Origin: Megasphaera hutchinsoni
GTDB lineage: Bacteria; Bacillota; Negativicutes; Veillonellales; Megasphaeraceae
DNA: 64,000 nt
Assembly (NCBI RefSeq): GCF_001553405.1
Contig: NZ_KQ960925.1
Coordinates: 1 to 64,000 of the forward strand
Reading direction: 5' to 3'
Shown one piece after another: positions 1,580 through 30,046 of this stretch. Every line of letters begins with the position of its first letter. Positions within the stretch are counted from its first letter, which is position 1. The position numbers were made by a program, and so were the translations under genes. Under the pieces are notes generated by a model that was not told the origin of the DNA, ran no database searches, and saw nothing but the letters and a program-made list of their open reading frames with translations.

Positions 1580-1604
1580 GTATATCACACCTTTTCTATT
1601 GTCA

Positions 1605-1635
1605 TGACAGCTGTATATACATATAATACACGTCA
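1605..1635. promoter_or_regulatory. Candidate NiaR operator over the niaP promoter
   Basis: This 31-base imperfect palindrome is bounded by TGAC and GTCA, contains the perfect palindrome TGTATATACA, and covers the niaP -10 element. NiaR-family repressors bind inverted repeats near niacin uptake genes when niacin is plentiful. Assigning this site to NiaR is inference from position. Confidence 0.4.
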
Positions 1636-1651
1636 GCACGCAAAAAAGCAA
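1623..1651 (-). promoter_or_regulatory. niaP promoter
   Basis: On the minus strand, TTGCTT (1646-1651) and TATTAT (1623-1628) are separated by 17 bases. This gives niaP its own start within the niaR-niaP gap, about 45 bases ahead of the chosen start codon. Confidence 0.6.
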
Positions 1652-1681
1652 GTGGAGATTTTTCTTTTTCCTTATCCTGCA

Positions 1682-2197
1682 TTATCCTTTATATAAAATA
1701 CCTAAAGCAGCTAATTTTTCTTCAATAACATCTAACTCCTCTTCGGACATAGCAAATATAGAATGCATATGAATGCCGCCGCTTAAAGAAGACAATAAAG
1801 CAGCATGCGATTGTTGCATCAACGTCATATATTGCTGCAAATCACGCCGTGAGCGAAGATTTAATTTTGCTTCTAATTCACCATACACCTCATGTTCCAC
1901 CAACACATTTTCCACTACACCGCCATTATCCACCATCGTTTCTAATTCCAGCTGCATCAATTCCACGCCATGTTTACACACCATTAACCGCCGACAACCC
2001 ACCGGCTCTACGTGCAATAACTGATATCCCCGCGGCGTGGAAATAATATTACGCCCTTTAGCTCTTAACATAGCAATATCCCCGACAATAATTTGTCTAC
2101 TCACCTTGCACATTTTCGCTAACGTCGTTCCATTCACAGGGGCATCGGCTTCATTAAGTATCTCTATAATCTGTTTTCTCCGTTGTACATTATCCAT
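1682..2197 (-). CDS. niaR: NAD biosynthesis/niacin uptake repressor NiaR (3H domain)
   Basis: This 171-residue protein has an N-terminal HTH_11 winged helix (about 1-60; recognition region near 23-48) and a C-terminal 3H domain. The histidines the domain is named for are visible at about H76, H102, H131 and H143/H145, the last within GGIHMHSI. NiaR (YrxA) represses niacin uptake and NAD synthesis genes with nicotinic acid as co-repressor, and the 3H histidines bind metal. The start at 2197 follows GGGGAG. The adjacent downstream transporter is the expected target. Length is typical for the family. Confidence 0.92.
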   Translation of the reverse strand: MDNVQRRKQIIEILNEADAPVNGTTLAKMCKVSRQIIVGDIAMLRAKGRNIISTPRGYQLLHVEPVGCRRLMVCKHGVELMQLELETMVDNGGVVENVLVEHEVYGELEAKLNLRSRRDLQQYMTLMQQSHAALLSSLSGGIHMHSIFAMSEEELDVIEEKLAALGILYKG

Positions 2198-26471: not shown

Positions 26472-26587
26472 TAAAAAAACATCAGCACGAAACATATTTC
26501 CCTCATTCCCTTCCCCCGGACAAAACAACTACCTCCCCCTTTCCCATTATGCGGCCTTGTGCAAAAGCATGATCCCCGCTTCATCAT

Positions 26588-26622
26588 AAAAGACCTCCTC
26601 GCGCCTAAAAAAGGAGGCCTCT
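26588..26622 (-). terminator. Terminator of the accessory cassette
   Basis: AGACCTCCT (26591-26599) and AGGAGGCCT (26612-26620) form a stem with one mismatch, and the minus strand then runs into TTTT. It follows the sigma-like gene. Confidence 0.7.
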
Positions 26623-26689
26623 TATACTACCGTTTTTCCTTATACACACATCACCGGGAAACGTAGATTGACAAGTTTAACGCTACGTG

Positions 26690-27226
26690 TTATTTTTTCC
26701 ATTCCCTACGCAGTTCCTCCAGCAACCGATGAACAATACGGCTAGCTTTTTTGGCAGTGATGTTATATTTTTTCCCTAAATCTCGAAATGTATAAGATCT
26801 ATGTAGATAATCACGAATAATGTCTTTTTCCATAGGAGTTTTATCTTTGATCACTTCTTCAATAAAGTATACTAATTGAGCATACGCAATATCATCAACC
26901 GGACAAACGAAATATTGCACTTCTTGTTGCTCTCCTTTACGTAATTGCATCCGCATAAGGAGGGTACGCCGTATCTCTCGGCGAACGGCATTACTCATTT
27001 TACTAAAGAAATAATAAACAGCTTTCACGTCACTGGCTAAATCGTATTCTTTCGCCCCCTCAAAAACAGCGATAGTACAAATACTTTGGATCTCATCTTG
27101 TTCCAAAATATCACGATGTTGCCTGGTTAGCTTCCACATGAAAGGTTGAAACATCTCAATTAATGTACCCACGTTGCGCATATCACCTTGTTGCATTTCT
27201 CGTATATAGTGCCTTATTGTGTCCAT
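26690..27226 (-). CDS. Small sigma-factor-like protein
   Basis: 178 residues with sigma-70 layout: a region-2-like helical block (about 5-95, MWKLTRQHRDILEQDEIQSICTIAVFEGAKEYD) and a region-4-like HTH at the end (about 140-175, YTFRDLGKKYNITAKKASRIVHRLLEEL). Size and divergence resemble group 5 (TcdR/UviA) or SigO/RsoA-type factors, or phage late regulators. Start at 27226 with a perfect AAGGAGG. It is the last gene of the cassette. It may direct transcription of the cassette itself, which lacks a clear sigma-70 promoter. That is inference. Confidence 0.7.
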   Translation of the reverse strand: MDTIRHYIREMQQGDMRNVGTLIEMFQPFMWKLTRQHRDILEQDEIQSICTIAVFEGAKEYDLASDVKAVYYFFSKMSNAVRREIRRTLLMRMQLRKGEQQEVQYFVCPVDDIAYAQLVYFIEEVIKDKTPMEKDIIRDYLHRSYTFRDLGKKYNITAKKASRIVHRLLEELRREWKK

Positions 27227-27289
27227 TGATCTAACCTCCTTAAAATGAGGGGTGCCGCCAGGATATAACGGCACCGCCATATTCTTTTA

Positions 27290-27511
27290 TTAGGCTATCG
27301 GTTCTACTGTACGACGTACCATGATCGCCTCTTTTAAGGTCATTAAGTCATGCCCGTCTACGGCAAAAATCTTCGCTTCTAACAGCGTTTTTACGCCTTC
27401 TTCTACGGCTTGTTTCGTTAAATCATTTTTCGGTTTTTTTAACGAATAGCGTACGCATTTGCCTGTTTCCGTTGCCAACGCAATTTGTAGGGTACTAGTA
27501 ATTTTATTCAT
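27290..27511 (-). CDS. DUF2922-family small protein
   Basis: 73 residues matching the DUF2922 pattern: a beta hairpin (LQIALATETGKCVRYSLKKPK), a helix (AVEEGVKTLLEAKIF) and the ending GHDLMTLKEAIMVRRTVEPI. The function of the family is unknown; it usually occurs beside DUF1659, as here. GGAGGTGG precedes the start. Confidence 0.8.
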   Translation of the reverse strand: MNKITSTLQIALATETGKCVRYSLKKPKNDLTKQAVEEGVKTLLEAKIFAVDGHDLMTLKEAIMVRRTVEPIA

Positions 27512-27560
27512 CTACTCCACCTCCTTTCTTCATGACACCACCTGCTGACACGTTATTAGC

Positions 27561-27761
27561 TTAGCCTTCAATTTTCGTGTCCACGATTTCATGCACTTCT
27601 GTCACATCACCTTCTTGCCATGCACCCACAGCCTTGCCTACGGCATAAATTTGCTGTGGATTAGCATCGCTTTTCAGCTTCGCCATCGTAAACGAATGGT
27701 TTTTACCATTAGCTACCATGCACACTTTCATTTTTGCAGTTACGCTTTTTTGTTCTGACAT
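27561..27761 (-). CDS. DUF1659-family small protein
   Basis: 66 residues resembling DUF1659: a short beta pair (KMKVCMVANGKNHSFTMAKLK), ANPQQIYAVGKAVGAWQ and the end VTEVHEIVDTKIEG. Function unknown. The ATG at 27761 follows AGGAGGTG; this ribosome site overlaps the amidase stop, so translation is likely coupled. Confidence 0.75.
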   Translation of the reverse strand: MSEQKSVTAKMKVCMVANGKNHSFTMAKLKSDANPQQIYAVGKAVGAWQEGDVTEVHEIVDTKIEG

Positions 27762-27775
27762 ATATTTCACCTCCT

Positions 27776-28315
27776 TTAGCCCTTTTGTGCGTGATTCGTT
27801 AGGGTCGGATATTGCATGATCCCTGTGGCAATAGCTTTGGCACAGGCATCTTCTTTCCCTGTATACATACGCACATCAGCATTATTATCAATAAAACACG
27901 GTTCAACTAAGACGGCCGGCATGATCGTTTGTCGGAGAACGAACAGCTCCATTCGTTCCTTAATCCCCCGATTAGGCAAGGGCAATACAGCGTGTATATG
28001 GGAAAGAATGATATGACCTAAAAGTACACTCGGCGGTGTATTGCTCACGAATACCTCTGTCCCACTGGAACGCGTATTAAATGCATTAAAATGCAAGGAT
28101 ACAAAGAGATCTGCCCCGCTTTTGTTGGCGTGTTCACAAACCTCATAAAGATTGTCTTGTTGTTCCATTTCGACTGTCACTTGTTGCTCTTCCAGATAGC
28201 GTTTGACACGAGTACCCAAGTCGTATGCCCAATCGCATTCCCGTAATTTAAGCGTACGATTGATGGCCCCTGAATCAAGCTTGCGATCGTGTCCCGGATT
28301 AAGAAATACTTTCAT
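27776..28315 (-). CDS. N-acetylmuramoyl-L-alanine amidase (Amidase_3)
   Basis: 179 residues, a bare catalytic domain. Zinc ligands H9 (LNPGHD), E26 (LRECDWAY) and H75 (SLHFNAF) and catalytic E138 (LVEPCFIDN) are all present. It cleaves the amide between MurNAc and the stem peptide. No signal peptide or wall-binding domain is visible, which fits a phage endolysin or a protein exported by another route. Start at 28315 with AAAGGAGC; the frame upstream overlaps the previous gene. Confidence 0.93.
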   Translation of the reverse strand: MKVFLNPGHDRKLDSGAINRTLKLRECDWAYDLGTRVKRYLEEQQVTVEMEQQDNLYEVCEHANKSGADLFVSLHFNAFNTRSSGTEVFVSNTPPSVLLGHIILSHIHAVLPLPNRGIKERMELFVLRQTIMPAVLVEPCFIDNNADVRMYTGKEDACAKAIATGIMQYPTLTNHAQKG

Positions 28316-28532
28316 CGTTTTGCTCCTTTCGCGTAGTTGTTCCGTCTTGCTGGACGGACATTTGTACGGCTGCCTCTTGCCCACCAAGGGCAATACCTAC
28401 GAGGGATGTATCTCCCTCGCCGGTCTGCCGTCGAGCCTGCGGAGAAATAGCATAGCGGTCAAAGATAAAGCGTATAACATACACCATGATCTCTCCTACG
28501 GGACTCCTTAAGAATTGAATTATTTTGTTCAT
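28299..28532 (-). CDS. Hypothetical 77-residue protein upstream of the amidase
   Basis: I do not recognise this protein. Residues about 10-30 (SPVGEIMVYVIRFIFDRYAI) are amphipathic to hydrophobic and might touch membrane; the rest is polar, Gln/Gly/Thr-rich. Start at 28532 with AAAGGAGACAGG; its ATG overlaps the preceding gene's TGA (ATGA), and its end overlaps the amidase start by 17 bases. Position before an amidase suggests a holin-like partner, but the hydrophobic part is too short to say so. Confidence 0.65.
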   Translation of the reverse strand: MNKIIQFLRSPVGEIMVYVIRFIFDRYAISPQARRQTGEGDTSLVGIALGGQEAAVQMSVQQDGTTTRKEQNDESIS

Positions 28533-29410
28533 CCTGTCTCCTTTCTTTTTATCGTTGATGCCGCCCATAAAGGGGTAGCACTAATAAACGTTTCTAACCG
28601 TTCGTCACCTCGCCGCATCCGTGTAAACCAACGGCTTTTTTTCTGCACTTCCTTACAGTATGCTTGATACGCATGATGAATTTCAATGCCATACGTACTT
28701 CGCTCTTCCTCCGTAATATCATCCACACAGCGTTTGATGTAATCTGCTTCCGTAAAGGGCATGTATATACGCGGTTTTGGTGACGTACGCTGCGGCGTCG
28801 GTATGGATTCCGGTACGAGGGTAAAGTTCTCTGCCAAGGTTTGACGACAAGCCGCCAACATCGTTTTTACTTCCCCTTTCGCTTGCGTAAAGGGATAGGT
28901 ATCACGCGGCGACATCTTGCGTAGGGCCGTCTTTGTCGGTGCTGCCGCTTTGGTAGCAGCAGTAGCCCCGGTTACCGCTTTGGTAGCAGCTGCTGCGGGT
29001 GGTGTCACCGACGTTTTCGCTGCTGCGGGTGGTGTCGCCTGCGGACTGCCCACAGCACGTGACCGCGACACATCCCGTTTGCTCACGGTTACGCCTTGAA
29101 TTTCGTCCCAAACCAACAACGTGATAACCCCATTTTCATCACGACTAATCAATTCCAGCGACTCAAACAGTGCTAATGCTTCCATGATAAAAGCCGTTTT
29201 TTTACGCAATCGCATGGCAAAGGTTTTCATCGCTACGGGTACACTACCCGTCACGCTGATTCTACCGTGATCATTTACTTTACCTGCGAGAGCCCGTAAG
29301 TAGATCCAAAAAGTAAATAACTCGGCACCTCGTTTTTGTTCTAACATATACATCATGCGTGGATCATCCATGATCCCGATATCGATTTTTAACCATTGCA
29401 GTCGTTGCAT
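28529..29410 (-). CDS. Phage replisome organiser-like protein
   Basis: 293 residues. The N-terminal 110 residues (WLKIDIGIMDDPRMMYMLEQKRGAELFTFWIYLRALAGK, then NDHGRISV) match the winged-helix domain of phage replisome organisers/DnaD-like initiators. A low-complexity Ala/Thr/Pro linker (about 125-175) follows, then a C-terminal part with FTEADYIKRCVDDITEEERSTYGIEIHHAYQAYCKEV. Such proteins load replicative helicase at an origin. It starts the cassette with AAAGGAGCG. No integrase, terminase or capsid genes accompany it. Confidence 0.75.
   Translation of the reverse strand: MQRLQWLKIDIGIMDDPRMMYMLEQKRGAELFTFWIYLRALAGKVNDHGRISVTGSVPVAMKTFAMRLRKKTAFIMEALALFESLELISRDENGVITLLVWDEIQGVTVSKRDVSRSRAVGSPQATPPAAAKTSVTPPAAAATKAVTGATAATKAAAPTKTALRKMSPRDTYPFTQAKGEVKTMLAACRQTLAENFTLVPESIPTPQRTSPKPRIYMPFTEADYIKRCVDDITEEERSTYGIEIHHAYQAYCKEVQKKSRWFTRMRRGDERLETFISATPLWAASTIKRKETG
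28945..29036. repeat. Direct repeats encoding the Ala/Thr/Pro linker
   Basis: CCGCTTTGGTAGCAGC occurs at 28945-28960 and 28975-28990; GCTGCTGCGGGTGGTGTC occurs at 28989-29006 and 29019-29036. The linker therefore grew by in-frame duplication (30-base period). Confidence 0.85.
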
Positions 29411-29927
29411 TTTCGCTCGCTCCTTTGGGTTTACGTGGTTGGGAAATTTACCCTTCTACTATTTATTACCATCGAGCGAGGAAAAAGGGACACTTTTTTG
29501 AAATTACATAAATTTTCTTTTTCTCTTTAATTTTATACGGTATTTTCTATAAAATATTAATTTTTATATGATAATTTATCATAGAACAAAAGATATTATC
29601 CTTCTGCTTTATGTTTCTACTTTCTTTAGGGGTATTTTTTTATCATGCTTAGTTAATTTAATTTATTGGTTGAAAAGATCAAATTTTTATTAATTTATTT
29701 TATTTTTTCTTTTTCTCTTTTCTTCTTCTTTTCTTATCTCTTCTTATCTCTTCTTATATAAGAGATAAAAAAAAGAAATGGCTTACCTAGGGGATTTATG
29801 CCTAAGCAAACAAGCATACTGTGGGACGCTGACACACACATAACACGCTGCGGACATAAGATATACATGTGGACAAGGCGTGTTCTCCCCTTGTTTTAGA
29901 TGACTATATATGCAAAAAAAAAGATAA
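29411..29927. other. Very AT-rich non-coding stretch upstream of the cassette
   Basis: More than 500 bases with no supported gene; from about 29500 to 29770 the sequence is almost only A/T with C in pyrimidine tracts. It contains the TTCTTATCTC repeat and a 9-bp hairpin. It could hold the cassette promoter and/or an origin-like region. No consensus sigma-70 promoter was found ahead of the first gene. Confidence 0.5.
29731..29768. repeat. Iteron-like tandem repeat with inverted repeat
   Basis: TTCTTATCTC is repeated at 29731 and 29741 with a third partial copy at 29751. TTATCTCTT (29744-29752) is the inverse of AAGAGATAA (29760-29768). Repeats of this kind in AT-rich DNA beside a replication-initiator-like gene recall iterons, though copy number is low. 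Confidence 0.5.
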
Positions 29928-29969: not shown

Positions 29970-30046
29970 TGGTGACCCGGTAGGGATTCGAACCCTAGAC
30001 CTACTGATTCGTAGTCAGTCACTCTATCCAGCTGAGCTACCGAGTC
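29970..30046 (-). tRNA. tRNA-Arg (anticodon ACG)
   Basis: Acceptor GACTCGG/CCGGGTC with one G-T pair, D arm GCTC/GAGT, anticodon stem ACTGA/TCAGT with loop CTACGAA (anticodon ACG), T arm TAGGG/CCCTA with TTCGAAT, discriminator A and encoded CCA. A34 is presumably edited to inosine. It has its own promoter and terminator. Confidence 0.97.

Follow-up and report, generated by a model that had tools for sequence, protein, structure and literature searches.

What kind of element is a compact run of minus-strand genes that joins a phage-type replication protein, a signal-less amidase, two protein families known only as domains of unknown function (DUFs) and a sigma-like factor? The question is raised by a 64,000-nucleotide stretch of Megasphaera hutchinsoni DNA (contig NZ_KQ960925.1, positions 1 to 64,000; hereafter the window), in which six such genes were noted in an initial annotation made from the sequence alone. 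We refer to them as REPO (replisome-organiser-like), SMALL, AMI (amidase), DUF1659, DUF2922 and SIG (sigma-70-like; Table 1). Their packing was confirmed at 26690-29410, where successive genes from REPO to SIG overlap or are narrowly spaced (gaps of -4, -17, +14, +49 and +63 nt), and where AAGGAG or AGGAGG at proper spacing upstream of all six starts provides strong ribosome sites. The cassette is a compact, old, chromosomally resident bacterial operon. Its true core across the sampled Bacillota, as judged by sequence comparison, is the obligate pair formed by DUF1659 and DUF2922. The earlier suggestion of a domesticated phage or plasmid core, or of a switched lysis module, was aimed at the right area, with the correction that the replisome gene is not the core.

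The evidence for the pair is chiefly distributional. Among 299 Bacillota genomes, DUF2922 was found in 147 and DUF1659 in 148, with both in 147 (genome lists matched by eye); the only single-family genome, G270, has DUF1659 alone, with partial DUF1659 matches. The significance of this co-occurrence (Fisher p 3e-87; table 147/0/1/151) is inflated by genome relatedness, the pattern still being near-perfect. The two genes are adjacent in the window and at 30/30 loci from distant Bacillota, and the pair is present at 40/40 further neighbourhoods compared from genomes of the window's own order. It also occurs in Thermotoga maritima, the only positive among 14 named control genomes, 13 of which had no match to either family. 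Copy number can be higher: five genomes (G025, G239, G264, G088 and G330) hold 4 to 8 copies of the two families, and Selenomonas ruminantium WCT3 has two pairs in tandem (L101, 11016-11983).

The two families also resemble each other. Profile-profile comparison of DUF1659 with DUF2922 gave P 8.5e-6 (probability 83%); ten column-shuffled controls all stayed at P > 0.1, and a reversed profile reached 0.19. AlphaFold models both proteins as beta-beta-alpha-beta, with a predicted local distance difference test (pLDDT) score of 90 for DUF2922 and 76 for DUF1659. Profiles and models together suggest that the two are probably ancient duplicates, which may work jointly. No solved-structure relative of either was significant.

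Around this core, the cassette is inherited as a unit. Within the family to which the window belongs, a complete cassette reads REPO, c7, c6, AMI, DUF1659, DUF2922 and SIG, where c7 (~180 aa) and c6 (~70 aa) are small genes without a significant Pfam match and, for c7, without a significant solved-structure relative. Because relatives keep the same gene order, the cassette is not a chance pile-up; the genes do co-occur elsewhere, and the view of the initial annotation that this is an unusual cassette with a dedicated sigma-like factor holds up. Among the 40 order loci, SIG is found at ~24 and YvrJ lies downstream of the pair at none, whereas the 30 distant loci include 26 with YvrJ after the pair, 5 with SIG next to it and 1 with an adjacent amidase. 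YvrJ itself scores above its Pfam cut-off, with a PHROG holin match (1.4e-4) for one copy. Both the amidase and the replisome-type genes are additions to the pair at the level of the family. In two genomes from another family of the order (L060 and L065), the sigma-like gene sits on the opposite strand just past the DUF pair, so that the association outlasts a change of operon layout. One distant locus (L084:2030-2680) has a staphylococcal-nuclease-type gene between YvrJ and an amidase, beside the pair.

A second mark of unity lies upstream. The DNA preceding the first cassette gene is generally unalignable, apart from a conserved, promoter-like block, CTTATATAAGTAGAGGGGTAATT, located ~35-65 nt before that gene's start codon. 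Eight relative genomes provided 11 sites, spread over nine loci: the block precedes REPO in G003, G010, G012, G013 (two REPO copies) and G015, and precedes c6 in G004, G005 and G014, all of which lack REPO while keeping the pair, SIG and the block. Its place before whichever gene comes first marks the block as a feature of the cassette rather than of REPO. The sites score 29-41, against a background maximum of ~13 in 550,640 positions, and in 17 family genomes near-exact copies cluster at the cassette; a wider regulon was ruled out, as copies elsewhere are about as numerous as matches to a reversed-pattern control. The decayed copy in the window is the sole occurrence in its own genome. Family members G001, G002, G006 and G011 have no clear copy, and their SIG proteins are highly divergent (15-20% identity to that of the window). 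At L283 (~2588-2990) and L284 (~1591-1997, reverse strand), solitary extra REPO genes occur with the remainder of the cassette not nearby, each with two promoter-like blocks upstream, ~340 nt apart.

As for the individual proteins, Pfam places Phage_rep_org_N, Amidase_3, DUF1659 and DUF2922 above cut-off, in agreement with the first domain calls, and PHROGs matches in the cassette comprise a replisome organiser, an endolysin and a sigma factor. The sigma-like call needs qualification: the single SIG protein falls just under curated cut-offs (Sigma70_r4, 24.0 vs 24.1 bits; sigma70-ECF, 39.7 vs 42.9, E 3.7e-10), but its family profile matches sigma structures, SigF and SigW among them, at 1e-22 to 1e-23, and at this profile level its sigma-70 identity, with regions 2 and 4, is secure. 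In the alignment, AMI keeps the zinc ligands H8, E25 and H74 and the catalytic E137, and it matches a PHROG endolysin at 7e-46. SMALL occupies the position of c6, matches the c6 profile at E 0.008 and has an amphipathic N-terminus; it has no family match, and its hydropathy stays below that of a clear transmembrane helix.

REPO has an N-terminal winged-helix replisome organiser domain (PF09681) and matches phage replisome organisers and DnaD-like loaders. In the window, the relatives' profile finds no match in its C-terminal half, which consists instead of an Ala/Thr/Pro-rich linker and an unrelated tail; a C-terminal DnaD/DnaB_2-like domain is absent from this protein and weak in relatives (E 0.03). 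The linker is encoded by 30-nt periodic GC-rich repeats (28945-29039), at a position where the relatives' proteins run on towards the DnaD-like domain. The window cassette also lacks c7, and hence any helicase loader or helicase. In relatives, c7 is weakly suggested to be loader-like by its PHROG helicase-loader match (E 0.049) and its location after REPO. These two losses, of the REPO C-terminus and of c7, leave the window genome with a damaged phage-replication half of the cassette. Here REPO is probably a DNA-binding regulator only, or decaying, since both its C-terminal domain and its loader-like partner are gone, and it is not expected to start replication.

Our preferred explanation, put forward tentatively, is that the cassette is a domesticated phage-like operon, resident in the chromosome and centred on the obligate DUF1659-DUF2922 pair, with a release or envelope function. 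Co-inheritance as a unit, inseparability of the pair in Bacillota and a cassette-specific promoter-like site are established at the level of sequence, and the following mechanism would build on them. SIG, encoded last, would recognise the promoter-like block and thereby form a self-reinforcing on-switch for its own operon. The two beta-beta-alpha-beta proteins would act jointly as a heteromeric partner or regulator. Once the switch is on, the signal-less amidase and the small amphipathic protein would open or remodel the cell wall from the inside, with holin-like YvrJ taking the helper role of the latter elsewhere in Bacillota; the opening may serve release, or a controlled death of part of the cell population. 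In this scheme, the replisome-type protein would be a borrowed DNA-binding part. Several points weigh against this explanation. The pair is retained at many loci from which the amidase and SIG are missing, and its basic function therefore cannot be lysis; a holin role for SMALL is no more than possible, given that no transmembrane helix is clear in this protein. The copy of the block in the window is weak, recognition of the block by SIG is a deduction, the release function is drawn by analogy, and Foldseek matches are too weak to name a function for DUF1659 or DUF2922 (none at E <= 0.001). A bolder version, in which the pair is an obligate, duplicated two-protein machine that, with its own sigma factor, a promoter private to the cassette and envelope parts of phage origin, makes up an undescribed chromosomal wall-opening or release switch that has repeatedly recruited phage genes, seems to us rather unlikely.

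The endolysin-like amidase and phage-type REPO could also come from the lysis/replication region of an ordinary prophage, intact or cryptic, which we regard as most improbable. As first reported, no integrase, terminase, capsid or portal gene lies beside the cassette, whose flanks are housekeeping or core genes. Four IMG/VR viral-contig scans (amidase, REPO, DUF2922 and c7 profiles) found no cassette, returning generic endolysins and a single REPO relative (22% identity), with no relative for c7; these scans rest on short peptide patterns and are not exhaustive, and that for DUF2922 used narrower alignments, the broad alignment being too divergent. DUF2922 was found in 54/60 genomes of the order, mostly in single copy. 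The same-family genomes without a match are 78-88% complete, except for G010, in which REPO-c7-c6 lie at the extreme end of a contig, making the absence probably an assembly break. The core flanks, these non-exhaustive scans and the near-universal chromosomal presence together rule out an ordinary prophage, including one annotated in close relatives. An unlikely, though less remote, alternative is a remnant replicating element, in which REPO as initiator and c7 as helicase loader would once have started replication of a plasmid-like element or phage satellite, with control and exit left to the other genes, the whole decaying in the window genome. Such an origin would be consistent with the likeness of REPO to replisome organisers and DnaD-like loaders, with the weak loader match of c7 (E 0.049), with the differing chromosomal sites of the cassette in different genomes and with the solitary REPO copies and their doubled blocks in two genomes. 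It is opposed by the lack of integrase, helicase, packaging gene and att repeats, by a near-universal, single-copy distribution in the order, by survival of the pair, SIG and block without REPO (G004, G005 and G014), by loss of the REPO C-terminus and c7 in the window, and by a viral record of one distant REPO relative and none for c7.

The distribution of the pair itself, in about half of the sampled Bacillota and in T. maritima, with core-gene neighbours, would suit an ordinary cell-physiology module, envelope-related or developmental, inherited from spore-forming ancestors, with the amidase and phage-type genes as passengers. We consider this possible, if somewhat doubtful: the sigma factor and holin-like YvrJ recur by the pair far beyond the window's family, the promoter-like block covers the entire cassette, and some carriers (Veillonella type, Thermotoga) are non-sporulating, which disfavours a strict spore role. 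The pair may nevertheless have a developmental role, in that a 2010 domain-frequency phenotype study grouped DUF1659 with endospore/sporulation domains (PMC2955703). Structural comparison gives one further possibility, held to be very unlikely, namely that DUF1659 and DUF2922 are nucleic-acid-associated proteins with a phi29 p6/p56-like fold, serving a DNA-handling cassette with the DNA-binding REPO. Entries for p6 (8pw4) and p56 appear in both Foldseek lists, but template-modelling (TM) scores are mostly < 0.5, with none of the matches reaching the E-value limit given above; moreover, both families are slightly acidic (mean charge ~ -1) and the pair mostly occurs without REPO.

Table 1. Cassette genes and neighbouring signals in the window.
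Feature	Positions	Strand	Description
Cassette terminator	26585-26626	-	-20.7 kcal/mol, z -4.4; 0/200 shuffles equally stable
SIG	26690-27226	-	Sigma-70-like factor, regions 2 and 4, 178 aa
Hairpin between DUF2922 and SIG	27251-27275	-	10 pairs; -19.3 kcal/mol, z -3.6
DUF2922 protein	27290-27511	-	73 aa; PF11148 2.4e-14
DUF1659 protein	27561-27761	-	66 aa; PF07872 1.4e-7
AMI	27776-28315	-	Amidase_3, single domain, without signal peptide; PF01520 8e-36
SMALL	28299-28532	-	77 aa, divergent member of relatives' c6 small-protein family
REPO	28529-29410	-	Phage_rep_org_N winged-helix protein, 293 aa; PF09681 6.7e-16
AT-rich cassette leader	29411-29926	-	28-30% GC; downstream of tRNA-Arg terminator
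Decayed block copy, TAATAAATAGTAGAAGGGTAAATTTCCC	29441-29471	-	Same position as relatives' CTTATATAAGTAGAGGGGTAATT; position weight matrix rank 21 of 550,640
tRNA-Arg	29970-30046		Upstream of cassette

The remaining signals at the locus agree in part with the first description. The terminator at the cassette end is real, as are the AT-richness upstream and the tRNA-Arg; the "repeats" reported in the leader are low-complexity purine-rich runs. Within the leader, no sigma-70 promoter match was found on the minus strand and no Rfam element except the tRNA, and its RNA structure is no more stable than that of shuffles. The tRNA-Arg has its own promoter (12/12) and a 20-pair terminator, and so the cassette is not transcribed from it. 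The hairpin directly upstream of the SIG ribosome site is a possible attenuator-like or translation-control element. Flanking genes are lysS, greA, dusB, type III pantothenate kinase, a PNPOx-like protein, an AraC regulator and a porin. Integration at tRNA-Arg was ruled out: the window contains no att-like repeat of the tRNA end, and a tRNA lies close to the cassette at 0/13 other same-family loci (one has tRNA-Leu ~7 kb off), the adjacency here being incidental. Fixed synteny after lysS was likewise rejected, none of 15 family genomes with a lysS locus (L268-L282) having the cassette there; in at least 14/15 another conserved gene block follows lysS, the fifteenth contig ending too early to judge. 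The tRNA-Arg and cassette after lysS (30162-26398) are unique to the window genome among the family genomes compared, and the chromosome has therefore been rearranged there.

Ultimately, two families of unknown function become one inseparable, apparently homologous pair across the sampled phylum, with recurring sigma and holin or amidase partners, and a single system that can be tested, with a promoter candidate already named, takes the place of two DUF labels. Should the release reading hold, Negativicutes that do not sporulate would retain a phage-derived switch for lysis or export in the absence of a prophage. The DUF cluster itself is already in databases. A full-text literature search found no functional study of it, and in the literature searched the near-perfect coupling of the pair, the likely common origin of the DUFs, the cassette-specific promoter-like block and the recruitment, at family level, of amidase and replisome-type genes appear undescribed.

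Several known systems invite comparison. The SPP1-type replication module comprises the G38P initiator and the G39P loader, which the relatives' REPO and c7 resemble in type and order; unlike that module, the cassette has no helicase, and the window lacks the loader gene and the REPO C-terminus. In the lysis region of PBSX-type defective prophages (Xpf, XhlAB, XlyA), a sigma-like positive factor and a holin/amidase set are retained in the host chromosome. Xpf and BhlA/amidase have been described within one PBSX-like region (PMC9406221), whereas the cassette is without tail, terminase and capsid genes. SigO-RsoA, which transcribes its own operon and yvrJ in Bacillus subtilis (PMC8103513), shares the small special-purpose sigma but is a split sigma linked to oxdC. 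A sigma factor, a holin and an amidase or endolysin are the known set of parts in Bcn5/UviAB and in the large clostridial toxin loci (PMC9527704), where a dedicated sigma-70 family factor stands beside an amidase that lacks a signal peptide, as it does here, and beside a small membrane protein; in contrast to UviAB and TcdR-TcdE, the cassette has DUF1659/DUF2922 in place of an exported toxin or bacteriocin gene, none being found in the operon, and no clear holin. The likenesses to Bcn5/UviAB, the toxin loci and SigO-RsoA are analogies, not membership. Closest is the DUF1659-DUF2922-YvrJ cluster of Bacillota (PF07872, PF11148, PF12841), which has the same adjacent pair and sometimes the same sigma type, and from which the present cassette differs in that an amphipathic c6-type protein replaces YvrJ and amidase and replisome-type genes have been added.

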